The notes beneath the pieces are model-generated. The model ran no database searches, had not been told where the DNA came from, and was given only the letters and a program-made list of their open reading frames with translations. DNA of 64,000 nucleotides. Source: Halopiger goleimassiliensis (GTDB taxonomy: Archaea > Halobacteriota > Halobacteria > Halobacteriales > Natrialbaceae). This document shows positions 17,894 through 34,037 of the stretch, in pieces (position 1 is the first letter of the stretch; each line of letters starts with the position of its first letter). The stretch is taken from NCBI RefSeq assembly GCF_000455345.1, contig NZ_HG315690.1:2493360-2557359 (forward strand), read 5' to 3'. The position numbers and the translations under genes are program-made.

Positions 17894-18235
17894 TCAGACC
17901 GGCTGCTGCGTCGCGCCGGCTTCGATCCACTCGAGTCGACCGTCGGTCGGTCCGTTCGTCGCCAGTACGTGGCCGGTGCGTCCGAGAGGAACGACTCCGG
18001 AAGCGCTTCGCGCTCGGAGGCGTCGGCGACCGTCTCGAGAACGTCGACGGCCTCGGCTGCCGCATCGACGTCGTCATAATGGGTCGGGGCGAGACGCGTC
18101 ACGACTGTCGCGACTCGACCGGCAACGGTCTCGGTGCCGGCGAGCGTTTCGATCCGAGGTCGGTCGGACCCGAACTGCTCGATACGATCCTCGAGAGCGC
18201 CTGACGACGGTCGGCCCGCTCGTTCGCCTACGAAT
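17894..18235 (-). pseudogene. Frameshifted remnant of an unidentified gene
   Basis: On the minus strand two frames read as plausible haloarchaeal protein. The first gives GALEDRIEQFGSDRP..., then VVTRLAPTHYDDVDAAAEAV and DASEREALPESF; a shift near 17975-17990 leads to GRTGHVLATNGPTDGRLEWI and the stop at 17894-17896. Codon third positions are GC-rich in both. No credible start codon is found upstream, so the gene appears broken at both the start and the middle. I do not recognise the family. Confidence 0.5.
18172..18204 (+). repeat. 33-bp direct repeat, copy 2
   Basis: 31 of 33 bases match the end of the vWA gene at 15395-15427 (differences at two adjacent-codon positions only). The copy lies antisense within the decayed minus-strand remnant and has no gene of its own on the plus strand. 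Confidence 0.6.
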
Positions 18236-18306
18236 CGACGTCGCTCGGGCCCGCGGAACCGAGGTAATAGCCACGCTTAACCGCGCCGACTCGCTTCGGT
18301 CGGGTA

Positions 18307-19386: not shown

Positions 19387-20367
19387 ATGACACACGAGAT
19401 CGCCGTCATCCCGGGCGACGGAATCGGGCAGGAAGTCACCCCCGCCGCCGTCGAGGTGCTCGAGGCGCTCGAGTTGGACCTCGCGTTCGTCGAGGCCGAG
19501 GCGGGCGACGCCGTGAAGGAAGAGACGGGCGAGGCGCTTCCGCAGGAGACCTACGACCTCGCCGCCGAGGCCGACGCGACGCTGTTCGGGGCCGTCGGCG
19601 AGACGGCCGCCGACGTGATCCTGCCCCTGCGTGAGGCGGTCGACTCCTTCGTCAACGTCCGGCCCGCGAAGGCCTACCCCGGCGTGGACGCCCTGCGGCC
19701 CGAGACCGACCTCGTGTTCCTTCGGGAGAACACTGAGGGCGTCTACGCCGGCCACGAGGATCGGCTGACCGACGACGTCTCGACGCTCACCCGCGTCGTC
19801 ACGAAGTTGGCCTCCCGAGAACTCGCCGAGTTCGCCTGCGAATACGTCGACGGCGACGACCACGACGGCTTCACGATCGCTCACAAGGCGAACGTGATGC
19901 GCGAGACGGACGGCCTGTTCCTCGAGACCGTCGAGTCCGTCGCCGACGAGCGCGGCGTCGAGACCGACGACGTGCTGATGGACGCCTTCGCGACGCGCGT
20001 CTGTCTCGACCCCACGCAGTTCGACGTCGTCGTCTGCCCCAACCTCGCCGGCGACGTCCTCTCGGACCTCGCGGCGGGCCTCGTCGGCGGGCTCGGCCTC
20101 CTGCCCAGCGCCAACGTCGGTCACGAGCGAGGGCTGTTCGAACCCGTCCACGGCTCCGCGCCCGACATCGCGGGCGAGGGGATCGCCAACCCCGCCGCGA
20201 CGATCGTCTCCGCGGCGATGTTGCTCGAGTACCTCGGCTACGACGAGGAAGCCGACGCGGTCCACGCGGCCGTCGAAACGACGCTCGAGGAGGGGCCGCG
20301 GACGCCGGACCTCGGCGGCGACGCCTCCACGGAGGACGTGACCGAAGCGATCGTCGATCGGCTGTAG
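19387..20367 (+). CDS. leuB: 3-isopropylmalate dehydrogenase
   Basis: 326 residues, slightly shorter than bacterial LeuB. It oxidatively decarboxylates 3-isopropylmalate with NAD. Family blocks: [20 protein letters not shown], the substrate Arg/loop in [12 protein letters not shown] and [25 protein letters not shown], the Mg-binding [20 protein letters not shown], and the NAD-binding [20 protein letters not shown]. Homoisocitrate or isocitrate dehydrogenases share these motifs, but the leucine context supports LeuB. It stands apart from leuCD, so it probably has its own promoter in the 63-base gap before it. Confidence 0.95.
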
Positions 20368-20919
20368 TCCGGGTCGACTGGGGCGTTTCCCGACGGACAG
20401 TAGCCGTTTCGGAAGGTGTATCCGGGCCTTCGTCGATACCGTCGTCGATCAGGGCACGTGCTTACTGAACAGGGTTTTGGAAATCTATAGAGGTAAACTG
20501 AAGCGCTCTGCTACCGTGGACACGGAGAGTAGCCACGCCGCTCACGGGTCACTTCGTTCCCCGTTCGCCTTCTCGAGGAGTTCGCTTCGCTCACTCCTCG
20601 TCCTCCCCAGCCGATTCGCTCCGTTTCACTCCGCTCACCCACTGTCAGAGCAAGCTCTGACAAGCCTTCGCTCACTTCGTTCGCGAAGACCTCGCACGAT
20701 GTCGTCGGGCAGCCTCGCAGTCGCTCACGGGTCGCACTGCTCCCCGTTCGCGTTTCGAGGTGCTCCCGGAGGTCGCACCTCGCTTCGCTCGGCTGGCCGA
20801 CAGCGCGCGCCACCGCGGATAGATTGGCTTCTTACGAGAAACTACATTGCCTTACCGAACGTCGTATCGAACGTTGCAAAACCGGTACGCGAACTGCACG
20901 TTTGCGCTCTTTCGTCCGA
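20368..20919. repeat. Gene-free stretch with hairpin-rich dispersed repeat, copy 1
   Basis: No gene. From about 20507 to 20830 the sequence is a mosaic of short inverted repeats such as tcagagc-aa-gctctga at 20645-20660, and of phrases built on ctcacgggtcac and ccccgttcg. Read on the minus strand, it matches the plus strand at 33420-33640: gaatcggctgggga, gcgaacggggaacg, gtgacccgtgagcggcgtgg and gtccacggtagcaga occur in the same order. A more AT-rich piece (ggttttggaaatctatagagg, 20473-20493) lies at its left edge. Confidence 0.7.
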
Positions 20920-21708
20920 TCACTCCGACCTGTCCGGCCGAAACACGCGCGCTCGAGCGTCGGTGGAGACGCCGTAGGTCGCCTCCTCGACGGAATCCGG
21001 AATCGACGTGTCGTCGTACCGGGCCTCGAGCGACGCGGTGACGGCCTCGCGGACGCAGGCGCGAGCGGCCGCGCCGACCGGGGTCGCACTACCCGAAAAG
21101 GCCGCGGGCGTACCGTCCGGATCGTGACCGGCGACGACGGCGTCCGTCGTAGTGCCGGGGAAGCCGGTCCGCGCGAGTAGCGTCGCGGCCTTCGCCTCCG
21201 CGGCGACGGCCACAAGGTTCGCCAGCGCCCCGTCGGGCAGGGATCGGGTCGTTCCGACGAGGACGTTGACGGTTCCGACGGGACTCGAGTCGCCGTCTGC
21301 CGCGTCGGGATCGCCGTCGGCGGTATCGGTCTCGTCCGGGAGCGACCCGCCTGGGGGATCCATCGGGAGCGCCGCAGGGTTCGAGAGGCCGACCGTGGCG
21401 TAGGCCGTGACCGGCCCGCAGCGCGCGCCGCGAGCGTGAGCGACATCGACGCCGGTGAGCAGCGCCGGTCCCCGAGCCGCGTCCGTTCGTCGGGAATCCG
21501 CGAGGAACCCCGCTCGCTCGAGGCGTTCGGTCACGTAGGCCGCCAGATCCGTTCGGTTCCAGCCCTCGGGGACCGAGAGGTTGTACGCGCAGTCGGCCCG
21601 TACGCGGCCGCCGTTCGCGCCGGTCGAGAGCCACTCGGTCCCCGGACGCGCGATCCGGAGGACGCCGTCGCGAACGAGCGCGTCGTAGCCGGGATCGCCG
21701 TCGCTCAT
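20920..21708 (-). CDS. cbiZ: Adenosylcobinamide amidohydrolase
   Basis: 262 residues. CbiZ cleaves the aminopropanol arm from adenosylcobinamide to give adenosylcobyric acid, the archaeal route for salvaging incomplete corrinoids. Family features: WLSTGANGGRVRADCAYNLS near the N-terminus, LLTGVDVAHARGARCGPVTA, GTVNVLVGTTRSLPDGALAN and AEAKAATLLARTG. A variable acidic loop (about residues 125-145) is inserted. It is the last gene of the cobamide operon; its ATG overlaps the cobD stop by 4 bases. Confidence 0.92.
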   Translation of the reverse strand: MSDGDPGYDALVRDGVLRIARPGTEWLSTGANGGRVRADCAYNLSVPEGWNRTDLAAYVTERLERAGFLADSRRTDAARGPALLTGVDVAHARGARCGPVTAYATVGLSNPAALPMDPPGGSLPDETDTADGDPDAADGDSSPVGTVNVLVGTTRSLPDGALANLVAVAAEAKAATLLARTGFPGTTTDAVVAGHDPDGTPAAFSGSATPVGAAARACVREAVTASLEARYDDTSIPDSVEEATYGVSTDARARVFRPDRSE

Positions 21709-22754
21709 GCGTCGGAGACGCCGAGCGCCGCGAGCAGTCGATCGTTCGCCTCGCGGTCCTTGATCGCGACCCGGACGTGTGAGTCCAGCCCGCGGAACGT
21801 CGTCGCGTCGCGGATCGCCACGCCCGCCTCGCGGGCCGACGCGACGACCGCCGAGACGTCGCGGTCCCCGACGTCACAGCAGAGGTAGGGGGCGTCCGAA
21901 GGGACGACGTCGAACCGCCCCTCGAGGGCCGCGCGAACGCGGTCGCGCTCGCTGGCGACGCGCTCGCGCGTCTCGCGGACGAACGACTCCTGTCGGAGAC
22001 AGTACGCGCCCACCTCGGCCGCCGGCGTGCCGAGCGACCACGCCCGGCGGGCCGACTCGAGCGCCTCGCGCCGATCACCGAAGGCCACCACGTAGCCGGC
22101 GCGCAGGCCGGGGAGGCCGTACAGTTTCGTCAGCGAGCGTGCGACGATCACGGATTCGCGCTCGAGCGTCGCCGCCGAGGGCAGGTCGGTGTAGCCGAGG
22201 AACGCCTCGTCGACGAGGACCGTCGTCCCGGCCTCCGCACAGCGGTCGACGAACGCCTCGAGCGCGCCCGGATCGGCCGCCTCGCCGGTCGGGTTGTTCG
22301 GCGTGCAGACGACGGCCAGCGCGCAGTCCTCGAGCAGGGCGATCTCGTCCGCGGATCGCGTGCCGACCGAGAGCAGTTCGTCGTACCGGACGAACCGCGC
22401 CGTCGCGCCCTGGAGTCGGGCCTCGCGGGCGTACTCGCCGAAACTGGGGTACGGGAGCAGGACCTCGTCGCCCGGCTCGAGCGTGACCGCCATCGCGAGT
22501 CTGATCGCGTCCAGTCCACCGGCCGTCGGGACGACCGCCGACTCCGGACAGCCGATCGCGTCGGCCGCCGCCGCACGGAAGTCGGGGTAGTCGTCGTCGG
22601 GATAGCGCCGGGCGGACTCGAGCGCGTCGGCGTAGACCTCGGCGACGCCGTCGGGCGTCCGCGGGTTGGTGTTGGCCGAGAAGTCGAGGAGGTCGGGATC
22701 GGTCTCGCCGCCGTGGGGAACCCGCGGCGTGTTCCGGACGGACTCAGGGTCCAC
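21705..22754 (-). CDS. cobD: L-threonine-O-3-phosphate decarboxylase (PLP enzyme)
   Basis: 349 residues if the GTG at 22752-22754 is used, giving (M)DPESVRNTPRVPHGGETDP, the usual family opening. Upstream in-frame starts (GTG 22760, ATG 22775) would only extend into the preceding gene. It is a fold-type I aminotransferase relative: FSANTNPRTPDG, the VCTPNNPTGE block, VDEAFLGYTD, and the PLP-lysine region SLTKLYGLPGLRAGY. It makes (R)-1-aminopropan-2-ol phosphate for the nucleotide-loop arm. Histidinol-phosphate aminotransferase is the closest alternative, but the operon settles it. Confidence 0.88.
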   Translation of the reverse strand: MDPESVRNTPRVPHGGETDPDLLDFSANTNPRTPDGVAEVYADALESARRYPDDDYPDFRAAAADAIGCPESAVVPTAGGLDAIRLAMAVTLEPGDEVLLPYPSFGEYAREARLQGATARFVRYDELLSVGTRSADEIALLEDCALAVVCTPNNPTGEAADPGALEAFVDRCAEAGTTVLVDEAFLGYTDLPSAATLERESVIVARSLTKLYGLPGLRAGYVVAFGDRREALESARRAWSLGTPAAEVGAYCLRQESFVRETRERVASERDRVRAALEGRFDVVPSDAPYLCCDVGDRDVSAVVASAREAGVAIRDATTFRGLDSHVRVAIKDREANDRLLAALGVSDA

Positions 22755-23826
22755 GATCACCCTCCATCGGTCCATCTGCGGCCGCATCGGCATCCACCGG
22801 CCCGTCGGCGTCCGCGTCGATATCCGTCGATCCGCCGGCTTCGGCGTCGATACCCAGCCGTTCACAGACGGCCGCGAACCGATCGCGAACCGCGGTCATC
22901 TCGCCGTCGGGAACGAGCGAGAGCGCACCGCCCATCGCGACGCCCTCTTTCGCCTCGCCCGCACAGTAGCGCGCCATCGCGACGTGATCGCGCTCGTCGA
23001 AGCCGGGGTCGGTCACCACGAGGTCGCAGTCGAGTCGGTCGCAGTCGGCCGGGAGGTCGTCGCCGCGCTCGTCGGCCACGAACGAGGTCGTCGCGATCGT
23101 CAGGTCGGCCTCGACGCCGGCGTGACGCAGGAGGGCGGCGACGGCGACCATCTGCGTGCCGCCGGCGAGCGTCACGTCCGTGCCGGTCTCCAGCGCGCCG
23201 GCGGCGATACCGGCGACCGTCGGCTGAACCGGATCGCCGACCGCGCGGATCGCCTCGAGCGGCTCTCCCTCGCAGGATCCGGGCTCGAGGTCGCTTTCCT
23301 CGAGGGCCTCGTCGACGACCCGATGCTTACGCTCGAGGGGGTTGTCGGGCAGCGACGAGGAGACGGTCGCCGGTTCGCCCAGCGCCGTCAGGACGCCGAG
23401 CGCGGTCGTCGTCCCGCCGGGGACCGTCTCGCCGATCAGCAGACGATCGTCGGGGAGGCTCGAGCCGAACGCGTGGGCGCGGTCGTAGATTCCGGCGGCG
23501 TCGGGGACGGCGACGGGGTCGCGGATATCCGCACCCGGGTCGACGTCGAGGTCGACCGTCGGCGCGCCCGTCGGCCGGGAGAGTCCCGCGTCGACGACCG
23601 TCAGGTCGAAGCCGACGACCTCGCGGACGGCGCGGGCGACCGCCGCGGGCGTCGGACAGCCCGACGGCGAGACCGGCGTCACGGGCGCGAGCGTCGGCCG
23701 GCCGTACGCGAGGATCTCGACGTCCGCCGACGGCGTGTGGGCCATCAGCTCCGGGGCCGCACCCGCGGCGCTGATGCCGTCGATCAGGGCCGTCTCCGTC
23801 GTCCCGGCGGGGAGCACTACGCGCAC
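22744..23826 (-). CDS. cobT: CobT-like nicotinate-nucleotide--base phosphoribosyltransferase
   Basis: 360 residues. Matches the archaeal branch of the NaMN:DMB phosphoribosyltransferase family: FGSSLPDDRLLIGETVPGGT, TVAGIAAGALETGTDVTLAG-GTQM and YCAGEAKEGVAMGGAL. It activates the lower-ligand base as an alpha-ribotide. The last ~35 residues are an Asp/Ala-rich tail (DADADGPVDADAAADGP) typical of haloarchaeal low-complexity ends. Overlaps cobY by 10 bases at its start and cobD by 11 at its end. The base used by the organism cannot be read from sequence. Confidence 0.87.
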   Translation of the reverse strand: MRVVLPAGTTETALIDGISAAGAAPELMAHTPSADVEILAYGRPTLAPVTPVSPSGCPTPAAVARAVREVVGFDLTVVDAGLSRPTGAPTVDLDVDPGADIRDPVAVPDAAGIYDRAHAFGSSLPDDRLLIGETVPGGTTTALGVLTALGEPATVSSSLPDNPLERKHRVVDEALEESDLEPGSCEGEPLEAIRAVGDPVQPTVAGIAAGALETGTDVTLAGGTQMVAVAALLRHAGVEADLTIATTSFVADERGDDLPADCDRLDCDLVVTDPGFDERDHVAMARYCAGEAKEGVAMGGALSLVPDGEMTAVRDRFAAVCERLGIDAEAGGSTDIDADADGPVDADAAADGPMEGDRGP

Positions 23827-24428
23827 GGGTCCCCCTCCGATCGGCGTCGCTGCAGGTGGCTCGCCGCTACGCGGGCGTCGGTGCGTCTGTTCACGTTCAC
23901 CGCGAGTCGCGGATCGTAGTGGATGGCTGTCATGGTTTCGTCACTGCTGCCGACGACGTTGATCCCCGTCGGCGCGAGGTGGGGTGCCCCCTCGAGCGTG
24001 GCATCGACGCCGACGCCGAGGCGACGTTTCAGCGCGACCGGAACGCAGACCGTCCGCGAGGCGTCGCGTTCGCCGTGAAACGCGAGGATTCGATCGACGA
24101 CCGTCGCCTCGAGCAGCGGCAGGTCGGCGGCGACGGTGAGCACCGGCGGCTCGACGGCGGGACGCTCGAGGACCGCCCCGAGGTCGGCGACGTAGCCCTC
24201 GCCGGCCGTCTCGACGGTCGTCACGGTTGGCGCGTCGTCCTGCTCGAGGTGGGCACGCGTTTCGGGCGCGTTCGGCGAGACGGCGGCGTAGATAGTCTCG
24301 ACGCGACTGGCTGCGAGCGCCTCGCGGACGCGATCGACCATCGCCACGCCGTCGATCGGGTGTAGCGGTTTCTCGTGAGGGCTCTCGAGCCGCGAGCCCT
24401 CGCCGCCGCACATCAGAATAGCGTCCAC
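23817..24428 (-). CDS. cobY: GTP:adenosylcobinamide-phosphate guanylyltransferase
   Basis: 203 residues. CobY is the archaeal, non-orthologous replacement of bacterial CobU. The nucleotidyltransferase opening MDAILMCGGEGSRLESPHEK has the GG-x-G-x-R and Lys signature; LTVAADLPLLEATVVDRIL supplies the metal-binding Asp. It attaches GMP to adenosylcobinamide phosphate. It overlaps cobS by 16 bases and cobT by 10, so it is translated within the operon. Confidence 0.92.
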   Translation of the reverse strand: MDAILMCGGEGSRLESPHEKPLHPIDGVAMVDRVREALAASRVETIYAAVSPNAPETRAHLEQDDAPTVTTVETAGEGYVADLGAVLERPAVEPPVLTVAADLPLLEATVVDRILAFHGERDASRTVCVPVALKRRLGVGVDATLEGAPHLAPTGINVVGSSDETMTAIHYDPRLAVNVNRRTDARVAASHLQRRRSEGDPCA

Positions 24429-25174
24429 GCGATCACCCCCGCGTGGACGCCGACGACGCGTCCGATCTCGTTCGCTGCGCCGAAGATATCGCCGTTGATC
24501 CCCCCGAGATGGTGGTTCGCCCAGACCCAGGGGAGGCCGATCCCCGCGACGGCGGCGACGAGTGCGACCGCGGCAGCGGGGTGGGGCCAGGTCAGTACCG
24601 CCGCGGGCAGGGCCAGGACCGCAGGCGCGACGAGCGACGCAGGACTGGCACCCTCGGTGAACTGCCGGCCCATCCCCTCGTAGCTCGCCCGGCCGAAACA
24701 GGCCATCGCGGCCATCCCGAGCTTTGCGCCGACCTCGGCCGCGACGGCGACGCCGACCGCTGTGACCGCGGCGAGGGAGGCCAGCGAGAGGCCCGCCAGC
24801 GCCAGTCCGGCCACCACGACGGCGATCGCCAGGATCGCCCCGACGCCCGTCGTGGTGTCTTTCAGCACCTCCCGGCGGCGTTCGACATCGCCGTGGACGA
24901 CGAGCGCGTCGCCGAGGTCCGCGACGCCGTCGAGGTGGTGGATCCCCGTCACGGCGTACACCGCGAGCAGGTAGGCGAACGCGACCGTCGGCTCGGGGAG
25001 CGAATCGATCGCGAGCAGCGGAAGCGCCGCCAGCCCGCCTGCGACGTAGCCGACGACGGGAAACGCCGCGGGCGTCGTCCGGAGCGCGTCCCAGTCGCCG
25101 TCCCGGAACGGGACGGGGAGCCGCGTCAGAAATCCCAACCCGCCGCGGATCGCGCCGAGCGAGCGCCCGATCAC
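24413..25174 (-). CDS. cobS: Adenosylcobinamide-GDP ribazoletransferase (cobalamin synthase)
   Basis: 253 residues, membrane protein with about six hydrophobic segments. It joins AdoCbi-GDP to the alpha-ribazole phosphate at the membrane. Signature pieces: GGLGFLTRLPVPF at the start, the metal/substrate motif IHHLDGVADLGDAL, GVGAILAIAVVVAGLAL, and the late GGINGDIFGAANEIGRV. 25 bases separate it from cbiB upstream, and it overlaps cobY downstream. Confidence 0.95.
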   Translation of the reverse strand: MIGRSLGAIRGGLGFLTRLPVPFRDGDWDALRTTPAAFPVVGYVAGGLAALPLLAIDSLPEPTVAFAYLLAVYAVTGIHHLDGVADLGDALVVHGDVERRREVLKDTTTGVGAILAIAVVVAGLALAGLSLASLAAVTAVGVAVAAEVGAKLGMAAMACFGRASYEGMGRQFTEGASPASLVAPAVLALPAAVLTWPHPAAAVALVAAVAGIGLPWVWANHHLGGINGDIFGAANEIGRVVGVHAGVIAWTLF

Positions 25175-25199
25175 GGGGCCACCTCCGCGAGGCGTTCGG

Positions 25200-26183
25200 T
25201 CACGCTCTCACCCCCATCGACTCGAGCGTCGTCGTAGCCGCGGACGCGATCGTAGGCGCGACGGCGTCCGAGAGCGCCGCGAGGGCGACGGCGACGAGCA
25301 CCGCGACGACAGCGGCCCGGCCGACGATCGTCACGGCCCGTTCGCCGTCGGCAACCGTCGGGAGCGGTGCCTCGGGATTCAGCTCGTAGACGCCCGGCTT
25401 CGAGAGCCGAACCGAGAGCACGCAGGCGAGCGTCGCCATCGGCCACCCCGAGTTCGGCGACGGCGGCGCTCGAGCCCACCGACGGGCGCGCCACAGCGCC
25501 CGGGGACTCCCGGCGGCGACGGCGATGGCGACCGCGGTCACTCTCGCTGGGAGCCACATCACGAGGTCGTCGAGGCGCGCGCTGGCCGTCCCGTGGGGCT
25601 TGTCGGGGTAGCCGAGCATCGAATCGAGCGTGTTGACGCCCTTGACCCAGGCGGCGACGCCGGCGGCCGCGGGCAGGGACAGCGGCGCGAGCAGCGCGAA
25701 CGGGAGCAACGTCGCGACCAGCCCGTCGGCGAGGTTCTCGGCCGCGCTCTCGACGGCCGCGCTCCGGAGTTCCGCCGGCGAGAGCGCGGAGGCGTCCCGG
25801 CCCACGAGCCCGCGGACCTTCTCGCGGGCCGTCTCGAGGTCGCCGTCGGTCGCCGCGAGGACGGTCTCGGTCAACTCGAGCAGCGAGCGGAGGCTGATCG
25901 TCACGAAGAGCACGAGACCAGCCAGGACGGCCCCCAGCAGTGGATCGAGCGCGAGGCCGAAGGCGACGAGCCCTCCGGCGGCGAGGGCGGGGACGAGCGG
26001 GACAGCGAGCGCGATCCCTACTCCGACGAGGCGCTGTCCGCGATCGGTTTCGACCCACTCGCGGTCGAGCGCGCCGACGAAGTGGCCGAACCACGCCACC
26101 GGGTGGACGGCGTTCCGGGGTTCGGCGAGCAACAGGTCGAGGCTGAAGGCCAACCCCAGCAGCGCGAGCGTCGTGATCGTCAC
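25200..26183 (-). CDS. cbiB: Adenosylcobinamide-phosphate synthase
   Basis: 327 residues from the GTG at 26181-26183. Membrane protein of the CbiB/CobD family: SLDLLLAEPRNAVHPVAWFG near the N-terminus, ESAAENLADGLVATLLPFAL in the middle, GVAAWVKGVNTLDSMLGY and the PARVTAVAIAVAAG block. It amidates adenosylcobyric acid with aminopropanol phosphate (product of CobD), so it sits between CbiZ and CobY in the pathway. The GTG start overlaps the stop of a 19-codon frame as GTGA. Confidence 0.93.
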   Translation of the reverse strand: MTITTLALLGLAFSLDLLLAEPRNAVHPVAWFGHFVGALDREWVETDRGQRLVGVGIALAVPLVPALAAGGLVAFGLALDPLLGAVLAGLVLFVTISLRSLLELTETVLAATDGDLETAREKVRGLVGRDASALSPAELRSAAVESAAENLADGLVATLLPFALLAPLSLPAAAGVAAWVKGVNTLDSMLGYPDKPHGTASARLDDLVMWLPARVTAVAIAVAAGSPRALWRARRWARAPPSPNSGWPMATLACVLSVRLSKPGVYELNPEAPLPTVADGERAVTIVGRAAVVAVLVAVALAALSDAVAPTIASAATTTLESMGVRA

Positions 26184-26239
26184 GGTCGTACCTCCGCTGG
26201 CGTCCGCGTTCGGTACAGGATCGCGTCGACACGTGTCAT
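26180..26239 (-). other. Possible 19-aa bridging minigene in the cobamide operon
   Basis: A short frame (ATG 26237-26239) encodes MTRVDAILYRTRTPAEVRP. Its start overlaps the HAD stop as ATGA, and its stop overlaps the cbiB start as GTGA, filling the 52-base gap exactly. This arrangement suits translational reinitiation along the operon. It may also be chance; no homology is claimed. Confidence 0.3.
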
Positions 26240-26916
26240 CGCCCCCGCTCCTCCGCGTCCGTCGGTCCGTTCGGGTTCACTGGTCCGTCCGCGAGCGTCG
26301 CCAGCCGGTCAGGTACCGCCTCGAGCGGCGTCTCCTCGAGCAGGACGGCAGTGCCGCCCACCTGCTCGATCCCGCCGTCGGTTCGCGGATCGTCGCCCAC
26401 GTGTACGAGATCGGCGGGCGCGACGCCGAGTTGGTCGGCCGTCTCCGCGAAGATTTCGGGCGCGGGTTTGCGCCAGCCACAGCCGACGCTCGAGACGACG
26501 GCGTCGAAATCATTGCGCCCGAACGCGGCCCGGACGAGCGTCCGGCCGACGAGTTCTGGGACGCTGCAGTTCGAACAGATGGCGACGGGACCGTACTCGC
26601 GGGCGGCCTCGATGGCCGCGATCGCGCCGGATCGCGTCTCGACCGTCGGGTCGAACGCCGAGACGACGGCCCGTCTGGCCGCGTTCCCGGTCCCCGCGAG
26701 GTCGACCCCGCGACTCGCGAGCGCGCGGGCGACGTGTGCCGGCAGCGGCACCTCCGCGCCCTCGGGGGCGTCGACGTGTCGCTCGCGGTAGGCCGTCTCC
26801 CAGTCGTCGGGGACTGGCACGTCGCGGCGCTCGAGTTCGCGCGCGACCGCCGCGGCCGGATCGTCGGGCCGGTCGACGGTCACGAGCGTCCCGAAGAGGT
26901 CGAACGATACTCCCAC
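26236..26916 (-). CDS. HAD-superfamily hydrolase in the cobamide operon
   Basis: 226 residues. Motif I reads SFDLFGTLV, motif II ICSNCS, motif III the Lys in GWRKPAPEIF, and motif IV HVGDDPRTDGG. So the HAD fold with nucleophile Asp6 is intact, but the usual +2 Asp acid/base is a Phe, as in haloacid-dehalogenase-type members. It is the first gene of the cobamide operon. The operon lacks a recognised alpha-ribazole or AdoCbl-phosphate phosphatase (CobC/CobZ), so this protein could fill the role; the missing +2 Asp speaks somewhat against a standard phosphatase. Inference only. Confidence 0.85.
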   Translation of the reverse strand: MGVSFDLFGTLVTVDRPDDPAAAVARELERRDVPVPDDWETAYRERHVDAPEGAEVPLPAHVARALASRGVDLAGTGNAARRAVVSAFDPTVETRSGAIAAIEAAREYGPVAICSNCSVPELVGRTLVRAAFGRNDFDAVVSSVGCGWRKPAPEIFAETADQLGVAPADLVHVGDDPRTDGGIEQVGGTAVLLEETPLEAVPDRLATLADGPVNPNGPTDAEERGR

Positions 26917-27055
26917 GTTCGTGTACCTAGCCCAAGTTGACTTTAGGGTCGCGGTTCGTGCAGCGTTACTCCGTTCGCGACACGATCGAGAGGAGTCTGC
27001 TGTGGTTCAACTCACACTCGTTTGCGGTCCGTGATCCGAACACCTCCGCACGGCG

Positions 27056-28261
27056 TTACTCGAGCGGGATCACGTTCGACTCGAGGTCTCGTGGGTAGTA
27101 GGTGAGGCGGTCGATGCCATCCTCGGTGATCGCGATCGTGTCGGAGTGGCGGTAGCCGTACGTGTCGGTGTAGAGGCCGGGTTCGATCGTCCAGACGTGA
27201 CCCGGTTGCATCACGGCGTCGTCCGCGTCGTAGGTCGTGTGGTCGCTCTCACAGTGGTCGGCCCAGCCTCGGTCGATGTACGGCGGTTCGTGGCCGCCGA
27301 GGCCGATGTTGTGGCCGACGTGGTGCTGGGCGAGGTCGGCGACGCCCTGTTCCTCGAAGTAGATGCGAACAACCCGATCCACCTCGGCGATGGGGACGCC
27401 CGGGCCGAGCGCGTCGATCGCGATCTCCTGGGCTTCCTTCATGACCTCGAAGTAGTGGGCCTGCTCGTCGGTCGGTTCGCCGAGGAACATCGTCCGCTCG
27501 AGTTCGGAGCGGTAGCCGTCGACGTTCGCGGTCGCCCCCGTGATCAGGACGTCGCCGGCCTCGAGCCGCCGGTTCGCGGTGTGGCCGTGCGGGAGTCGCG
27601 TCTGCTCGCCCGTGATGTACCCCGCGTGGACGGGGCCGTCGCCGCGGGTCCGGGGCACGTACCGGTCGCCGAGCGCGTCGAGCATCGCCCGCGAGGCGTC
27701 CATCGACGCCCGCTGGCTCACCGTCGCCGGATGCGCACCGGGTTCGGTGTAGTCGGCGAGGTAGCGATGGCCCAGGTTCGCCCACCGGGCGGACTCGCGG
27801 ATCAACTCGACCTCGAGGTCGGACTTCTCCCAGCGCATCCGCGAGACCCACTCCTGGGTCTCCCCCTCGAGGAACTCGGACAGCGGCGGTCCCTGGTAGC
27901 CCATCACCCCCGGCGCGCCGTCGGCGTCGGCCGCGACGCGCTCGACGTCGAGGGCCTCGAGCATCCCGTACGCAGTACGGATCGGTTCGCCGCCCGGATA
28001 GTCGTCGTAGTGGTAGACGTCCTCGATACGGGGGTTCTGGCTCACTCGCTCGACCTCGAGTCGGGGGACAGTGATCGCGACGTGTTCGTCGGTCACCGCG
28101 AGGACGACGGGTCGTTCGGTCTGGATGTGGCCGAAGCCGGTCAGGTACTCGATGCTGGTCGCGCCGAACCAGACGCCCGCGTCGGCGTCAGTCTCGGCGA
28201 GTCGGTCGCGAACGGCCGCGAGCCGTCGCTCGAAGGCGTCGGCCGGAACGTGCGTGGCCAT
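27056..28261 (-). CDS. M24-family (Xaa-Pro peptidase/creatinase-like) protein with altered metal ligands
   Basis: 401 residues with an N-terminal creatinase-like domain (about 1-150) and a pita-bread catalytic domain. The HxxIGLGGHEPP and WTIEPGLY blocks keep His and one Glu. The other usual ligands differ: the two Asp of D-x-G...Y-x-x-D-x-T-R appear as ITGATANVDGYRSELERT (Thr/Asn and Glu), and the final E of R-x-E-D appears as YRHSDTIAIT (Ser). The protein may not bind two metals, so peptidase activity is uncertain; creatinase, a metal-free hydrolase of the same fold, is an alternative model. Single-gene unit. Confidence 0.85.
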   Translation of the reverse strand: MATHVPADAFERRLAAVRDRLAETDADAGVWFGATSIEYLTGFGHIQTERPVVLAVTDEHVAITVPRLEVERVSQNPRIEDVYHYDDYPGGEPIRTAYGMLEALDVERVAADADGAPGVMGYQGPPLSEFLEGETQEWVSRMRWEKSDLEVELIRESARWANLGHRYLADYTEPGAHPATVSQRASMDASRAMLDALGDRYVPRTRGDGPVHAGYITGEQTRLPHGHTANRRLEAGDVLITGATANVDGYRSELERTMFLGEPTDEQAHYFEVMKEAQEIAIDALGPGVPIAEVDRVVRIYFEEQGVADLAQHHVGHNIGLGGHEPPYIDRGWADHCESDHTTYDADDAVMQPGHVWTIEPGLYTDTYGYRHSDTIAITEDGIDRLTYYPRDLESNVIPLE

Positions 28262-28317
28262 ACGACTATCGGCGGGGAGATGCGGGAAAAACGTTCAGGT
28301 AACGGAACCCGGGACGC

Positions 28318-28929
28318 TCAGTCGAGGCGCGCGAACGCGAGGTTGCCGGAGATGTTCTTGATGTAGATGTCGACCACGTCGCCCTCTTCGGCACCGGGGA
28401 CGAAGATCGTGTACTCGCCTTTCTCGGCGACGCCGTCGCCCTTGCGGCCGGTACCGGTGATCTCGACGGTGTAGGTCTTGCCCTCCTCGACGGCCTCCTG
28501 CTGCTGTTGCTGCTGGCTGCTCGCCGAGCGCTTCGTGACCGGTCGGAAGGCACCACAGGCGTCGCAACGAAGCATGGGCGTGCGGTCCTCGCGGACGAGG
28601 CGGGTGTCCGGCAGGCCACACTCCGAACAGAGGACGTACTCGTCGACGTAGGCGTCGACGGCGGCGTCGAAGTCCTGCTCGGAGAAGGTGCCGTTGTAGC
28701 GACCGCGGCCGTCCTCGAGTTTGCCGCTGGTCCCCATCTCACGCTGGACGAACCGGTGGAGGTGTTCGGCCTCCCGCGAGAGGGTGTCGGCGATCTCGCC
28801 GAGGTTCGTGAATCGCGTGAACGCGCCGTCTTTCTGCGTCTCGGCGTCCGGAATCTGGAGTCGCTGTTCGTCGCCCCCGATGTCGGGAACGTCCTCCATC
28901 GCACGGTCGAGACTCGATTCGTAATCCAT
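28318..28929 (-). CDS. Translation initiation factor aIF2 beta subunit fused to a TRAM domain
   Basis: 203 residues. The first ~135 are aIF2-beta: NLGEIADTLSREAEHLHRFV, REMGTSGKLEDGRGRYNGTF, and a zinc ribbon with CSECGLPDTRL...RCDACG (CxxC twice). It belongs to the eIF2-like complex that brings initiator tRNA to the ribosome. After a glutamine run (SSQQQQQQEAVEEG) a C-terminal TRAM domain (GKTYTVEITGTGRKGDGVAE ... IKNISGNLAFARLD) is attached, an RNA-binding addition seen in haloarchaea. The Q run is coded by a short trinucleotide repeat near 28496-28520. Confidence 0.93.
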   Translation of the reverse strand: MDYESSLDRAMEDVPDIGGDEQRLQIPDAETQKDGAFTRFTNLGEIADTLSREAEHLHRFVQREMGTSGKLEDGRGRYNGTFSEQDFDAAVDAYVDEYVLCSECGLPDTRLVREDRTPMLRCDACGAFRPVTKRSASSQQQQQQEAVEEGKTYTVEITGTGRKGDGVAEKGEYTIFVPGAEEGDVVDIYIKNISGNLAFARLD

Positions 28930-29040
28930 ACGCGAGGGAAGGCGACCGGGACGTAAATCGGTTCTGCTATCGCAATCGGGGGACGAGGCGGAGATCGTCG
29001 TGATCGATCTCGCGATGGTTTCGAGCGGATCGCCACCGCG

Positions 29041-29427
29041 TCAGAGCGAGTCGCTGCCCCGTTCGCTCGGCGAGCCCTGTTTCTCCTCGTCCAGCGCCGT
29101 GAGGTCGCGCTCCGGGTTGGCCTCGTTCGGACTGCCGGCCTGGCCCGTGAGCTCGCCGTAGACCGCCTCGCGGACCTCTTCGGGACTCTCGTACTCTTCG
29201 CCCGCCAGGCGATCGAAGACGTGACCGAGGGTCTCCGTCTCGTTGGGCAGGTCGATCGGTTCGCTCCCGTACTCGGCGGCGATCTCCTCGCTCGTGACGG
29301 GGTACTCGAGTTCGCCGAGGTCGCGCTCGACCGTCTCGAGGATCGACTCCGTCTCGTCGGCGCGGTCGGATTTGCGCTGCTCCGCCCGATCCTGTGCGCG
29401 GTCGCGGCTGGGGCCGTCCTGGCTCAT
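29041..29427 (-). CDS. Small acidic haloarchaeal protein (DUF5789-like)
   Basis: 128 residues from the ATG at 29425-29427 (MSQDGPSRDRAQ); an upstream start would add only nine residues. The core LGELEYPVTSEEIAAEYGSE plus PNETETLGHVFDRLAGEEYE looks like the DUF5789 type of winged-helix-like proteins of haloarchaea, from memory. No membrane segment, no catalytic motif. Function unknown; it lies downstream of aIF2-beta in reverse order, and linkage is not evident. Confidence 0.75.
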   Translation of the reverse strand: MSQDGPSRDRAQDRAEQRKSDRADETESILETVERDLGELEYPVTSEEIAAEYGSEPIDLPNETETLGHVFDRLAGEEYESPEEVREAVYGELTGQAGSPNEANPERDLTALDEEKQGSPSERGSDSL

Positions 29428-29678
29428 GGGCGGCGCTACCGCCAGCCACCGCAAAAGGGTCCGGCCGGCGTCTGCGGGTTCGGCCGGGACTCCGCTCGAT
29501 CCCTGACTTCAATGGCCTGCGTACTGTCCAGCGACCGTTTATGTGGTTTCGATCCCAAGCCATTGGTGACCCTGGCTCGCGGTGGCGCGTTGCCCGACGG
29601 CTACCCGTTTTCCAGGGTCACTCTCGCTCTCGAGCGGCGCGTCCGTACGGCAGTGCCAGCGGCATCGGTGGCCCTCGT

Positions 29679-30305
29679 TCACTCGCCACCGAGATAGCCG
29701 ATCGCCTCCGCGTCGCTCACCTGCCCGAACTCGCGGTAGTACTGCCCGACAGCGCGGAACTCCCCGGGTGTCCGGAGCGCGATCACCATGTCGGCCTCCG
29801 CCTCGAGTTCTTCGACCGACCGCGGGGAGCCGACGGGCACTGCCAGGGTGACCGATCCGGCACCCGCCTCCCGCACCTGCCGGAGACAGGCCGTCGCGGT
29901 CGCGCCGGTCGCCACGCCGTCGTCGACCACGACCACGTCCAGCCCCTCGAGGTCGGGCAGTCCCGGCTCGTCGCGGTAGCGGTCGGCCTTCTCGCTGGCG
30001 TTTTCGGCCTCCTCCTCGCGGACCGACTCGAGGTAGTCGTCGCCCACGCCGAGTCGATCGATCAGGTTGTCGTTGTACCGGACGCTGCCGTCGCTGGCGA
30101 CCGCGCCCAGCGCCAGTTCGGGGTTGTCCGGTGCCCCCATCTTCCGGGCGACGACGACGTCCAGTTCCGCGTCGAGGGCGTCCGCAACGGGCCGGGCGAC
30201 GGGCAACGCGCCCCGCGGAATCCCGAGGACGACGTCGGCTGCGAGGTCGCGGCGCTCGAGTTCGGTCGCCAGTCGGCGGCCGGCGTCGGTTCGGTCCTCG
30301 AACAT
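29679..30305 (-). CDS. Phosphoribosyltransferase-domain protein
   Basis: 208 residues. The PRPP-binding motif VVVVDDGVATGATA is seen around residues 122-135, and VVLGIPRGALPVARPVADAL at the front is the flexible loop region of type I PRTases. It could act on a purine/pyrimidine base or be one of the unassigned PRTase-like proteins (often fused to dienelactone hydrolase in bacteria); substrate not predictable. It is divergent from the NnrD-like gene. Confidence 0.88.
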   Translation of the reverse strand: MFEDRTDAGRRLATELERRDLAADVVLGIPRGALPVARPVADALDAELDVVVARKMGAPDNPELALGAVASDGSVRYNDNLIDRLGVGDDYLESVREEEAENASEKADRYRDEPGLPDLEGLDVVVVDDGVATGATATACLRQVREAGAGSVTLAVPVGSPRSVEELEAEADMVIALRTPGEFRAVGQYYREFGQVSDAEAIGYLGGE

Positions 30306-30425
30306 GGGTCGTCGTACGCGATCCGTACACTACGGTTTGACGTGGCACACGACGGGCGTCCGGCGGCGGGAGACGCCGGAACACGCCTGCCCAACGGCTA
30401 CCGGTCCGCCGACGAACCCCCGAGT

Positions 30426-31199
30426 ATGGAGCGGCTCCAGCGAACCCTCTCGAACGTCTCGGAGGGCGACAACGACAACGGGCGCGTCGGCATCGTCGCG
30501 GGTGCGATCGAGTACCCGAACCAGCCGGCGCTCGTCGGCCGCGCGGCACTGCGTACCGGCTCCGATCACGTCAGGGTGTTCGTCGCCGACCCGATCTACG
30601 AGATCGTCGCGAGCCACGACCCGAACCTGCTGGTCGACCGCTACGCGGGCGAACAGTTCGAGGCGAGCGCGGTCGAGCGCACCCGCGAGATAAGCGACTG
30701 GGCCGACACCCTCGTGATCGGTCCCGGCCTGGTCGACGCCGACGAGACGGCGATCCACGAGGCGGTCGACTGCGTCGACGTGCCGACCGTCGTCGACGCG
30801 CTCGCGATCGATCCCGTGCTCGGGGCCGACCTCTCGAACGCCGTCCTCACGCCGAGCAGCGCCGAGGTCGGCCCGATCGAGGACCGCTACGGCTCGCTCG
30901 AGGAATTCACGACCGGGACCGGCGCGGTCGTCGCGCTGACCGGCGACGTCGACGAGATCGTCGCCGACGGCGAACGCGTCGAGAACGAGACGGGGACCTC
31001 GGCGCTGACCGTCGCGGGCACGGGCGATACGCTGGTCGGGATCGTCGCGTCGCTGCTCGGCCAGGGGATGGACCGCGCCGAGGCGGCCGAACTCGGGGCG
31101 TGGATCCTCGGCAAGACGGGCGAACTCGCCACGGCGGAGCACGGCCCCGGCGTCGTCGCCACCGACGTGATCGAGCGAGTTCCGGACACGATCAGGTGA
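30426..31199 (+). CDS. Stand-alone NAD(P)H-hydrate dehydratase-like protein (YjeF C-terminal domain)
   Basis: 257 residues of the ribokinase-like ADP-dependent dehydratase fold: GRVGIVAGAIEYPNQPALVG at the start, VIGPGLVD, VDALAIDP, VLTPSSAEVGPI and the ATP/ADP-site motif TVAGTGDTLVGIVASLLGQG with the catalytic Asp. The usual epimerase (YjeF N-terminal) half is absent. It would repair hydrated NAD(P)H; because the LTPH block has Ser for His, a different substrate is possible. Followed after 72 bases by a methyltransferase gene. Confidence 0.8.
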   Translation: MERLQRTLSNVSEGDNDNGRVGIVAGAIEYPNQPALVGRAALRTGSDHVRVFVADPIYEIVASHDPNLLVDRYAGEQFEASAVERTREISDWADTLVIGPGLVDADETAIHEAVDCVDVPTVVDALAIDPVLGADLSNAVLTPSSAEVGPIEDRYGSLEEFTTGTGAVVALTGDVDEIVADGERVENETGTSALTVAGTGDTLVGIVASLLGQGMDRAEAAELGAWILGKTGELATAEHGPGVVATDVIERVPDTIR

Positions 31200-31271
31200 T
31201 CGATCGCGCGCCACTCGTGGAGAGACGCCACCCCGGCAAACCTTACGCGTCCGCTCGTGGTACCGCCGCGT

Positions 31272-31991
31272 ATGTCGCAGTCGACCACCCGCTCCGCGAA
31301 TCGGAGCGACGACACCGATCCCGGCCGCGAGATCGATCATCCGCTGTTCGCCGTCCTCTACGACCTGTTGCCCCAGTCGCTGGTGGTCGCGCCCCACCGG
31401 GAGTACCTCGCACGGGACCTCTCCGGGCGGGTGCTCGAGCTCGGCTGCGGGACCGGCGACCAGTTTCCCTACGTCGCCGCCAGCGCGGCGGACGACCTCG
31501 AGTATCACGCGATCGAGCCCGACCCGAACATGCGAAAGCGGGCGATCAGCGCCGCCCACGACGCTGGACTGGCGGTCGACCTCCGCGACGCCCGGGCGGA
31601 GTCGCTTCCCTACCCCGACGACGCGTTCGACGCCGTGGTCTCCGGGGCCGTCTTCTGCACCGTGCAGGACCCGGCAGCGGCCCTCGCGGAGGTCGCCCGC
31701 GTGCTGAAACCCGGCGGCGAGTTTCGCTTCCTCGAGCACGTCCGCGCCGACGGCTGGCGTGCGCGGGGACAGGACCTCCTGACGCCGCTCTGGGAGCGAG
31801 TCGCCGGCGGCTGTCACCTGAACCGGAACACGGTCGATCGGTTCGTCGCGCACGACGCGTTCGCGGTTGAGGACGCCGAGCGCATCGGCCTCGGCGTCTT
31901 TCCGGTACGCCCCGTCGTCCGCGGTCGACTACGACGACGCCGCGAGGGAGTGGTGGATTTATCGGACCTCGCGCCCGCGGTGGGAACGTGA
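31272..31991 (+). CDS. Class I SAM-dependent methyltransferase
   Basis: 239 residues from ATG 31272. The SAM-binding motif VLELGCGTGDQFPYV is near residue 55, EPDPNMRKRA (motif II) follows, then LPYPDDAFDAVVSGAVFCTV and VARVLKPGGEFRFLEHVRAD, a UbiE/methyltransferase-11 layout. The substrate cannot be told. Its TGA overlaps the GTG start of the aminotransferase gene, so the two are translated together. Confidence 0.85.
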   Translation: MSQSTTRSANRSDDTDPGREIDHPLFAVLYDLLPQSLVVAPHREYLARDLSGRVLELGCGTGDQFPYVAASAADDLEYHAIEPDPNMRKRAISAAHDAGLAVDLRDARAESLPYPDDAFDAVVSGAVFCTVQDPAAALAEVARVLKPGGEFRFLEHVRADGWRARGQDLLTPLWERVAGGCHLNRNTVDRFVAHDAFAVEDAERIGLGVFPVRPVVRGRLRRRREGVVDLSDLAPAVGT

Positions 31992-33103
31992 GCGACGAGC
32001 GACTGCGGATGACGCCGGGGCCGACCGAGGTTCCCGCCGCCGTCCGCGAACGGATGGCCGAACCGCAACCGAACCCGGACGTCGAGTCGGCGTTCTTCGA
32101 CCGGTACCGCGCGCTGACCGACGACCTCGAGACCATTTACGCGGCCGACGCCGACGGCGACCCGAGCGACGCCGACCGCGACGTCGTCGTGCTGGGCGGC
32201 GAGGGGATCCTCGGCCTGGAGGCGGCCGTCGCGTCGCTGGTCGAGGACGGCACCCGCGTCCTCTGTCTCTCGAACGGGCGCTACGGCGAGGGGTTCGCCG
32301 ACTTCGTGACGGACTACGGCGGCGAGGCCGTCACCCTCGAGGTCCCCTGGCAGGAGACGCTCGAGGCCGACCCGGTTCGCGACCGCCTCGAGCGCGCGGC
32401 CGACGAGGGCGAACCGTTCGACGTGGCGACGATGGTCCACTGCGAGACGCCGACGGGGACGCTGAACGACCTCGAGCCGATCCTCGACGCGCTCGACGAG
32501 CACGAGGTCGTCAGCGTCGTCGACGCGGTCTCCTCGCTCGGCGGCACGCCCGTTCCGACCGGGAAGGTCGACGTCTGTCTCGGCGCGAGCCAGAAGTGTC
32601 TCAGCGCGCCGCCGGGGCTGACCACCTGCGCCGTCAGCGACCGGGCCTGGGAACGCATCGCGTCCGTCGAGAACCGGACGTACTACGCCGACCTCGAGCC
32701 CTGGCGAACCGCCGCCGACGAGGAGTGGTTCCCCTACACCCACCTGACGGCGAACCTCGCTGGCCTCGAGGCCGCCGTCGACCGCCTGCTCGAGGAGGGA
32801 CTCGACTCGGTCTTCGAACGCCACGAACGGGCTGCGAGCCGCTGTCGGGAGCGGGCCGCGGACCTCGGCCTCGAGACCTATCCGGAGCGGGAGGCCGACG
32901 CCTCGCCGACCGTGACCGCGCTCGCGGTCGACGGCCGGGCGAGTGACCTCCAGCAAGCCATGCACGAGGACCACGGGATCGTCCTCACGACCGGCCTCGG
33001 CGACCTCGAGGACGACATCCTGCGGGTCGGGCACATGGGAGAGAACGCCCGCGTCGATCGCGTCGAGCGGACGATGGACGCGCTCGAGGCCGTACTCGAG
33101 TAG
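31988..33103 (+). CDS. Class V aminotransferase (alanine/serine--glyoxylate type)
   Basis: 371 residues beginning at GTG 31988, overlapping the methyltransferase stop. MTPGPTEVPAAVRERMAEPQ is the classic opening of the alanine-glyoxylate/serine-glyoxylate group; the PLP lysine lies in CLGASQKCLSAPPGLTTCAV, preceded by VVDAVSSLGGTPVPTGKVDV. C-terminal HMGENARVDRVERTMDALEA fits too. It transfers an amino group from Ala or Ser to a keto acid; real substrates are unknown. The odd-looking spacing with the methyltransferase may mean a shared pathway. Confidence 0.9.
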   Translation: MSDERLRMTPGPTEVPAAVRERMAEPQPNPDVESAFFDRYRALTDDLETIYAADADGDPSDADRDVVVLGGEGILGLEAAVASLVEDGTRVLCLSNGRYGEGFADFVTDYGGEAVTLEVPWQETLEADPVRDRLERAADEGEPFDVATMVHCETPTGTLNDLEPILDALDEHEVVSVVDAVSSLGGTPVPTGKVDVCLGASQKCLSAPPGLTTCAVSDRAWERIASVENRTYYADLEPWRTAADEEWFPYTHLTANLAGLEAAVDRLLEEGLDSVFERHERAASRCRERAADLGLETYPEREADASPTVTALAVDGRASDLQQAMHEDHGIVLTTGLGDLEDDILRVGHMGENARVDRVERTMDALEAVLE

Positions 33104-33758
33104 GGTCGGCCAGCCAGCCTTGCTTACGTAGTAGACTTCGGGGGGTGCTCGGGAGGATCAAACACCCGTCGAGATTCCGTCCTGGCGCGCGCTGTCGTCC
33201 GGTCCAGGGAAGCGAGGGATGAGCGGAGCGAATCCCTCGAAGGGCGAACGGGGAACGCAGTGACCCGTGAGCACCTGCGAGACCGGACGACCAAGCCGTG
33301 GAGGGATGAACGAGCGACTAGTGCGGGACCGAGGTCCCGCATACCATGCGAACGGGCAGAGCGCGGCGCTACGCGCCGCGATGTCGGGGCGGCGCAGCCG
33401 CCCCGCCGTGCCCGTGAGCAGACGACGGGAGCGAGTGAATCGGCTGGGGAGTGCGAGGCGCGAACGGAGTGAGCGCCTCGAAACGCGAACGGGGAACGAA
33501 CGCGAGGGATGAGCGAAGCGAATCCCTCGGAGACCGAACGGGGAACGCAGTGACCCGTGAGCAAGTGACCCGTGAGCAAGTGACCCGTGAGCGGCGTGGC
33601 CACTCCTCGAGTCCACGGTAGCAGAACGGTTCATTTCACCGAAATTCTCTCGCGAACACTCCAGGCAATAAGTGCCCCAGGATACCACAGAGCGACGTCG
33701 TACGAAGCCGGAACGTGCAGGTGGAACCGTTTCCCGCCGGTCAGGCGTAGGCGTCGAT
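33104..33758. repeat. Gene-free stretch with hairpin-rich dispersed repeat, copy 2
   Basis: 650 bases without a gene. It is a patchwork of inverted repeats and of phrases such as cgaacggggaacg, gtgacccgtgagc and gagcgaagcgaatccctcg. The part 33420-33640 matches the minus strand of 20507-20650 in the same order of motifs, ending in gtccacggtagcagaacgg. Long reading frames across it (for example at 33158-33892 on the minus strand) are Arg/Ser-rich and are by-products of the repeat. The last ~100 bases may hold the promoter for the small membrane gene at 33759. Confidence 0.7.
33551..33595 (+). repeat. 15-bp tandem repeat, three units
   Basis: The unit TGACCCGTGAGCAAG occurs at 33551-33565 and 33566-33580 exactly, and at 33581-33595 with the last four bases changed to GGC-type ends. 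It lies within the larger hairpin repeat, whose other copy near 20540 has a single unit. Confidence 0.8.
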
Positions 33759-34037
33759 ATGTCCGACCCCGACCGGGAGCCAACCGAGAAACCGACCCGC
33801 GACAGGGAGGAGGCCGAAGACGAGGGCCAGTGGATGGCTCGTAACTGGCTCGGGATCGCCGCGGTCTCGATACTGGGACTGTTGCTCATCATGGTCGCGA
33901 TGATGCAGGCGACCGGGCTGATGGACGTGTTCGGGCCGGTTGCCGAGACCGAAACCCAGCAGTGGGCCGCGTTCGGCGCGCTCGTGGTCGTCTGGCTGGC
34001 GCTCGCCGGCTGGAGCTGGCGGGCGATCGCGGGCTAA
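33759..34037 (+). CDS. Small membrane protein, two transmembrane segments
   Basis: 92 residues from ATG 33759. A charged N-terminal tail of ~25 residues (MSDPDREPTEKPTRDREEAE) precedes two hydrophobic segments (about 30-48 and 70-90). No family motif recognised. Composition and codon use match neighbours, so it is likely a real gene of unknown function. Confidence 0.7.
   Translation: MSDPDREPTEKPTRDREEAEDEGQWMARNWLGIAAVSILGLLLIMVAMMQATGLMDVFGPVAETETQQWAAFGALVVVWLALAGWSWRAIAG

Follow-up and report, generated by a model that had tools for sequence, protein, structure and literature searches.

Two inverted repeats in Halopiger goleimassiliensis belong to an intergenic, multicopy family with a conserved fold, possibly a non-autonomous mobile element

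The 64,000-nucleotide stretch of the Halopiger goleimassiliensis genome analysed here (the window) carries two hairpin-rich repeats in opposite orientation, some 13 kb apart. A preliminary description, made from the letters of the window, proposed that the two might recombine and invert the DNA between them, or that they belong to a non-coding mobile (MITE-like) family. The question raised by this locus is what kind of element the two copies represent.

The two copies in the window

All four motifs named in the preliminary description were recovered when both stretches were read and compared, in the order and on the strands given there. A repeat search aligned the copies in inverted orientation over three segments: 20492-20554 with 33578-33640 (63 nt, 87%), 20573-20621 with 33433-33481 (49 nt, 80%) and 20695-20819 with 33176-33300 (125 nt, 71%). 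The inverted pair is real, but the elements are longer than was first described and are only two of at least 46. Both copies are intergenic and contain no supported gene, as had been claimed. Copy 1 lies between Iso_dh (leuB-like, 19387-20367, plus) and cbiZ (20920-21708, minus). The neighbours of copy 2 are an aminotransferase gene (31988-33103, plus) and a short predicted gene at 33759 (plus), for which a Pfam search found no match. Genes were called with a simple codon-bias finder, whose whole-window run wrongly chose an antisense frame over the leuB-like gene. The parts of the two copies are as follows, with P0 to P4 denoting the helices of the family fold described below.

33124..33695, plus: copy 2, whole element (limits inferred from family flanks, not mapped)
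33181-33624, plus: copy 2 core (from sequence)
33181..33194, plus: copy 2, 5′ strand of P0 and P1 (sequence and family fold)
33195..33291, plus: copy 2, P2 arm, TCGTCCGGTC...GACCGGACGA (sequence and minimum-energy fold of copy 2)
33212-33240 and 33244-33272, plus: two inserted hairpin modules of the copy 2 P2 arm (sequence and minimum-energy fold)
33305..33441, plus: copy 2, P3 arm, GATGAACGAGCGA...AGCGAGTGAATC (family pattern and family pairs)
33445..33609, plus: copy 2, P4 strands TGGGGAG and CTCCTCG (family pattern and family fold)
33549..33592, plus: 15-bp unit AGTGACCCGTGAGCA in 2.9 tandem copies (sequence)
33593..33624, plus: copy 2, conserved 3′ core GGCGTGGCCACTCCTCGAGTCCACGGTAGCAG, including the P0 strand CCAC (sequence)
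20438..20874, minus: copy 1, whole element (limits inferred from family flanks, not mapped)
20508..20814, minus: copy 1 core, from GGTGGCGCG (20814) to GTAGCAG (20508), arms with inserted hairpins (sequence)

In copy 2 the 5′ strand of P0 is degenerate (CCTGG, against GGTGG in the family) and the P1 strand is CGCGCG. The P3 arm alternates G.A tandems with two-pair steps and carries an insert of ~98 nt in its loop; this assignment follows the family pattern, the minimum-energy fold of copy 2 pairing the arm differently. The two P4 strands are separated by hairpin modules that total ~140 nt. Folded as a single sequence, copy 2 shows the arm hairpins and not the whole family fold. Pattern and family model each find two copies within the window. 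Copy 1 is matched by the model at 20494-20655 (E 7.9e-6) and 20658-20812 (E 1.5e-6), and both copies score weakly (E 1e-6 to 1e-4) because of their inserts. Weak model matches were also seen elsewhere in the window, at 41340-41439 (E 0.015) and 18231-18387 (E 0.44).

Other copies of the family have such inserts too. The core of the shortest copies measures ~140 nt and is lengthened by hairpin modules to ~440 nt in copy 2; depending on the copy, 5′ motif and 3′ core stand ~106 to ~460 nt apart. The same modules, for example those like GCGAGGGATGAGCGAAGCGAATCCCTCG and CGAACGGGGAACGCAGTGACCCGTGAGC, recur in different copies and arms. The 15-bp unit, described at first as tripled in copy 2, is indeed present there about three times (33549-33592, 2.9 copies), against ~2 copies in L002 and ~7 in L010. 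Arms would thus enlarge by insertion of hairpin modules and by tandem duplication, which may be why the window copies share the order of their motifs and differ in length. Beyond the core, pairs of family members stay similar for no more than 69 nt on the upstream side and 87 nt on the downstream side, 50-60 nt being usual.

Copy number and distribution

The genome-wide search proposed in the preliminary description was run. With copy 2 as a BLAST query, 81 matches were found in its own genome (E<=1). A 23-base pattern from the 3′ part of the element gave 49 matches at up to three mismatches and its reversed control none, so that the sharing goes far beyond chance. These 49 matches represent 47 copies, since two are second matches in a duplicated tail. 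Extraction yielded 48 rows, of which two are duplicated tails (L041+1568 and L068+2587), leaving 46 copies; a further copy, at C1:1094.8 kb, escaped extraction and was recovered by the model (E 3.7e-28). Some counts below are out of 45 because they leave aside L062, a copy among the 46 in which the 5′ motif could not be recognised. The model gave 63 matches in this genome at E<=0.001, expanded copies being matched more than once. All 46 extracted copies sit between called genes. The family is thus intergenic and non-coding, with at least 46 copies in a genome of 3.9 Mb.

The pattern detected the element in 25 of 391 Halobacteria genomes, from 7 of 86 genera, all in the family of the window; the reversed pattern matched once, in one genome. 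Model R1, scoring at most seven candidates per genome, had matches at E<=0.001 in 167 of the 391 genomes and 48 of the 86 genera. Seventy-five of the 167 belong to the same family as Halopiger, and the best match outside it has E 3.5e-15. Searched singly, three relatives gave 46, 42 and 49 model matches, and eight genomes from other families between 4 and 85 (E<=1e-4). Seventeen sequences from other families have the invariant words GCGAGGGA and TCGG.TGGGGAGG in common. RNAalifold on these 17 alone returned P1, P2 and P3 again, with 14 of 20 pairs covarying, a result short of full independence because R1 picked the loci.

No Rfam family reached its gathering score in the 64-kb window; at E<=5 there were three chance-level matches in L146, none of them over the core, and none in L031 or L129. 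A tRNA and tmRNA search was likewise negative. The element was not matched in the phage records searched, which leaves viral carriage without support. Three plasmid records do match, none with an annotated feature at the match. Within the parts of the literature that our search brought up, no paper was recognised as describing this haloarchaeal element.

A conserved, covarying fold

Thirty sequences, 15 from H. goleimassiliensis and 15 from relatives, were aligned (alignment A1), these being the shorter ones of 38 candidates. RNAalifold gave a closing stem P0 (GTGG/CCAC), an arm P1-P2, and helices P3 and P4. The fold comprises 37 pairs, 17 of which change on both sides. Of all cells, 95.7% are paired, compared with 30-48% when partners are slid, and none of 500 shuffles reached the observed values. 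P0 and P4 show few changes, or changes confined to one side, and are therefore supported by conservation rather than covariation. In P3, pairs come in twos between G.A tandems, whose columns (68, 69, 72, 73, 89, 90, 93 and 94) are invariant or nearly so (27-30 of 30 sequences); the tip of P2 has one G.A tandem step. Tandem G.A pairs are sheared and stable. An H-type pseudoknot combining GGGGA/TCCCC with GTGG/CCAC, which competes with the nested model, is a less well supported alternative: it pairs 92.5% of cells for the structure overall, against 95.7% for the nested model, and its own two helices have no both-side changes.

The 1110 paired cells consist of 917 Watson-Crick, 145 G.U, 6 A.C and 42 other combinations. 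The preponderance of G.U over A.C (145 to 6) identifies the folding strand as plus in copy 2 and minus in copy 1, and it is on this strand that, judging by the sequences, selection appears to act. The strand more likely folds as RNA than as DNA. RNA folding of two short copies gave z of -2.3 and -2.6 relative to dinucleotide shuffles; their reverse strands gave weaker energies and similar z (-2.4 and -2.0). Folded as single-stranded DNA, the one copy tested was not clearly better than shuffles (z -1.0).

Orthologous sites give a measure of what has been kept. At eight single-copy sites in three relatives (14 comparisons), core identity is 88.9%, against 79.1 and 77.9% in the two 60-nt flanks and 87-94% in the DNA further out. 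With doublets included, 26 comparisons of 12 elements from 10 places gave 87.7% for the core and 77.7 and 74.3% for the flanks, the 3′ flank of a doublet member overlapping its partner. As the ends have decayed and the core has not, we infer that the folded strand has been under selection. Gene conversion among copies could also have left cores more alike than flanks. Some orthologous elements look replaced, with core identities of 70-75% (L286/L311/L331, L277/L318 and L327). Across 12 orthologous elements, 144 paired positions differ: in 47 the pair is kept by changes on both sides, in 51 it is kept with a change on one side, and in 46 it is broken; this count (98 kept, 46 broken) leans towards the model, to which the alignment was fitted.

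Mobility, gene context and competing explanations

A closer look at the element ends bears on how the family spread. The end motif GTGTCRTAGAATCGNT occurs five times in the H. goleimassiliensis genome at up to one mismatch, always at an element end and correctly oriented. When up to three mismatches are allowed, 5 of 45 copies carry it at the 5′ end and 6 of 45 at the 3′ end, against means of 0.15-0.2 in shuffles, and none has it in the wrong orientation. Both ends are present in one of the 45, a 273-bp copy at C1:97132-97404 that has no transposase gene and is the one copy with an exact 9-bp repeat, TCCCCACTC, directly outside each end. Gapped local alignment of element flanks in search of terminal repeats gave scores mostly within the shuffled range. 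Among 131 copies from relatives the motif was not enriched (three at the 5′ end, one at the 3′ end, one in the wrong orientation).

The motif itself is present in 32 of 391 genomes, its reversed control in none. In genome G090 it bounds an insertion sequence of 1070 bp (L267:451-1520) with ends GAGCGTGTCATAGAAACG and GAGCGTGTCATAGAATCG, which encodes a 336-aa DDE_Tnp_1 transposase (E 2e-19). This transposase reaches no NCBIfam cut-off, and the insertion sequence has no target duplication. At up to one mismatch H. goleimassiliensis contains no insertion sequence with these ends, and the family therefore looks immobile there now. When 34 end-motif loci were given to R1, six contained the core: five from H. 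goleimassiliensis, two of these being the same copy, and L252, in which the motif adjoins the core in the wrong orientation. The end motif thus seems to belong to a wider group of insertion sequences. An occupied site was found in Natrinema zhouii (L085), where a copy lies before the aminotransferase gene in a stretch of ~358-373 bp that measures 17-34 bp in three other Natrinema; the occupied and the three empty sites are too diverged to give exact ends. Of 51 haloarchaeal loci given to R1 (four of 55 having been excluded), only L085 had strong matches, two in number.

The MITE-like proposal of the preliminary description is therefore supported within H. goleimassiliensis, where dispersed intergenic copies, oriented terminal inverted repeats and, at the one copy with both ends, a 9-bp target duplication are found, and is not extended to the relatives, where the end motif is not enriched. 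The site occupied in one Natrinema and empty in three others also speaks for mobility. The conserved, covarying core fold, common to other families of the class, had not been foreseen. Our preferred explanation, to which we assign a probability of roughly 0.55, is a non-coding, non-autonomous mobile repeat of haloarchaea that combines spread as DNA, by a DDE transposase acting in trans, with a selected folded core. The element, judging by the 273-bp copy, would have a folding core of ~140 nt and, on either side of it, a flank that ends in a terminal inverted repeat like GAGCGTGTCRTAGAATCG. In the Halopiger lineage a transposase of the DDE (PF01609) type may have acted in trans on the terminal repeats, with insertion into intergenic DNA and duplication of a 9-bp target. 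Selection would maintain the folded strand, which is most likely transcribed into RNA; either copies that do not fold would fail to multiply, or resident copies would be of use to the host. With both ends in one copy and no enrichment in relatives, the case for the DDE route comes from H. goleimassiliensis. Several observations run against this explanation. Copies in H. goleimassiliensis have a strand bias of 35:12, which is not expected of DDE transposition. The orientation of the motif in L252, the missing target duplication in L267 and the possible gene conversion noted above point the same way.

An alternative is a domesticated element, whose copies would resemble bacterial REP/BIME repeats in serving the host as structured intergenic boundaries. 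Such boundaries might define where transcripts end, guide the processing of RNA, affect supercoiling or bind protein; we consider this rather unlikely. Of the four settings, convergent gaps come up most often: counted relative to the element, the 46 copies of H. goleimassiliensis lie in 18 convergent, 12 --, 11 ++ and 5 divergent settings, and 58 single loci from relatives, some of them one place in several genomes, in 21 convergent, 14 ++, 14 -- and 9 divergent; these are raw counts, uncorrected for background. The relatives' context rests on 86 of 109 matches, 23 having been excluded as partial or as repeats of one place. It includes 14 loci with close pairs, 13 of which are inverted doublets with facing 3′ ends. 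Such doublets, the mosaic modules, and a core more conserved than its flanks at orthologous sites would all suit a host role. However, the family shows no orientation preference relative to genes despite a strand-specific fold, and the 63 model matches of H. goleimassiliensis include no facing doublet within 500 bp. Neighbours also vary: the 92 neighbouring genes match 125 Pfam families, each of them at most three times, with no transposase among the 25 families listed of the 125. A strand-specific 3′-UTR or terminator of the upstream gene was ruled out, ++ and -- settings being equally common. Given balanced settings and varied neighbours, we see neither a strand-specific mRNA role nor a link to cargo.

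Less probable again is a palindromic element (PATE) of IS200/IS605 descent, for which a Y1 transposase would recognise the hairpins and move the element in the form of single-stranded DNA. The family is hairpin-rich, dispersed and without coding capacity, PATEs are known in Haloquadratum (PMC3119063), and the strand bias would fit insertion tied to replication. However, PATEs are described there as lacking terminal inverted repeats and target duplications, whereas H. goleimassiliensis has such repeats and, at one copy, a target duplication; and the copy that was folded as single-stranded DNA did not clearly outdo its shuffles. In relatives, a close doublet looks rearranged on the scale of a few hundred bp (L278/L296 against L325). 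Inversion of the 13 kb by the window copies, for which one might cite their inverted orientation and that small-scale doublet, is very improbable, as the family has at least 46 copies and the longest word identical in these two is 23 nt.

The preferred mobile repeat with a folded core can be set beside known systems. MITEs are short, non-coding, multicopy and intergenic, share terminal inverted repeats with an insertion sequence, create target duplications and can form a stable transcript fold (PMC10969869); these traits recall the element described here, in which a target duplication is seen at the one copy with both ends. MITEs are typically AT-rich, whereas core matches of the haloarchaeal element have 56-71% GC; moreover, most copies lack ends, and the core fold covaries, is found in much of the class and does not rest on terminal repeats. 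Bacterial REP/BIME and REPIN sequences are likewise intergenic and mosaic and occur singly or as inverted doublets (PMC3116915, PMC3733652). They are palindromes of 20-40 bp, unlike a ~140 nt core with P0-P4, and the haloarchaeal element shares its terminal repeats with a DDE insertion sequence. Haloquadratum walsbyi has further transposase-free haloarchaeal repeats, its PATEs and SMRs (PMC3119063); PATEs are related to IS605-type ends, and SMRs differ in being 80-110 bp long and inserting into other mobile elements.

Tentatively, and somewhat short of even odds, the whole could be read as a class of structured RNAs that is present in a large part of the Halobacteria, with 40 or more copies in some genomes, carried by transposition, selected copy by copy and absent from Rfam as searched. 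Its signature would be helices built in alternation from tandem G.A pairs and steps of two Watson-Crick pairs. If true, this would make the family an archaeal interspersed mosaic element of functional RNA, and a host or mobile-element protein would read the G.A helices.

Taken together, the data define a haloarchaeal repeat family with a searchable model, and the alternating G.A helix offers an unusual, testable structural motif. Copies of the element open spurious reading frames, by which annotation can be misled. Since copy number, fold and orthologous sites can all be measured, it can be tested directly on this family whether dispersed archaeal repeats represent selfish DNA or functional RNA, or combine the two.

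Orientation of the copies

The copies of the element are unevenly distributed between the strands of its own genome (contigs C1 and C2 together), with 35 on the forward strand and 12 on the reverse (binomial p ~0.001). The first 1.5 Mb of C1 has 13 pattern matches to the element, of which 12 lie on the forward strand. Among the matches listed for G383 and G146 (family f6), close pairs are often head to head ([-][+]), whereas those of the window's family are tail to tail.

A doublet that differs between relatives and a probable related small element

A facing doublet present in two relatives (locus L278 in G192, L296 in G106) is matched in a third, G025 (L325), by one copy, with a core like that of the left doublet partner but in the position of the right. 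This difference appears to be a small rearrangement or conversion within the doublet.

At L250:1497-1880 the terminal motif is present with an inverted partner 384 bp further, and the core is absent; related sequence forms the start of L247. The insertion-sequence group to which the terminal motif belongs thus apparently includes this further small element.

Reading frames within the elements

Two frames are opened by the elements in the window:

20477-20977, plus strand, encoding a low-complexity peptide
33158-33892, minus strand, encoding a low-complexity peptide

The peptides contain stretches such as HGSLRSPF, and annotation may mistake such frames for genes.
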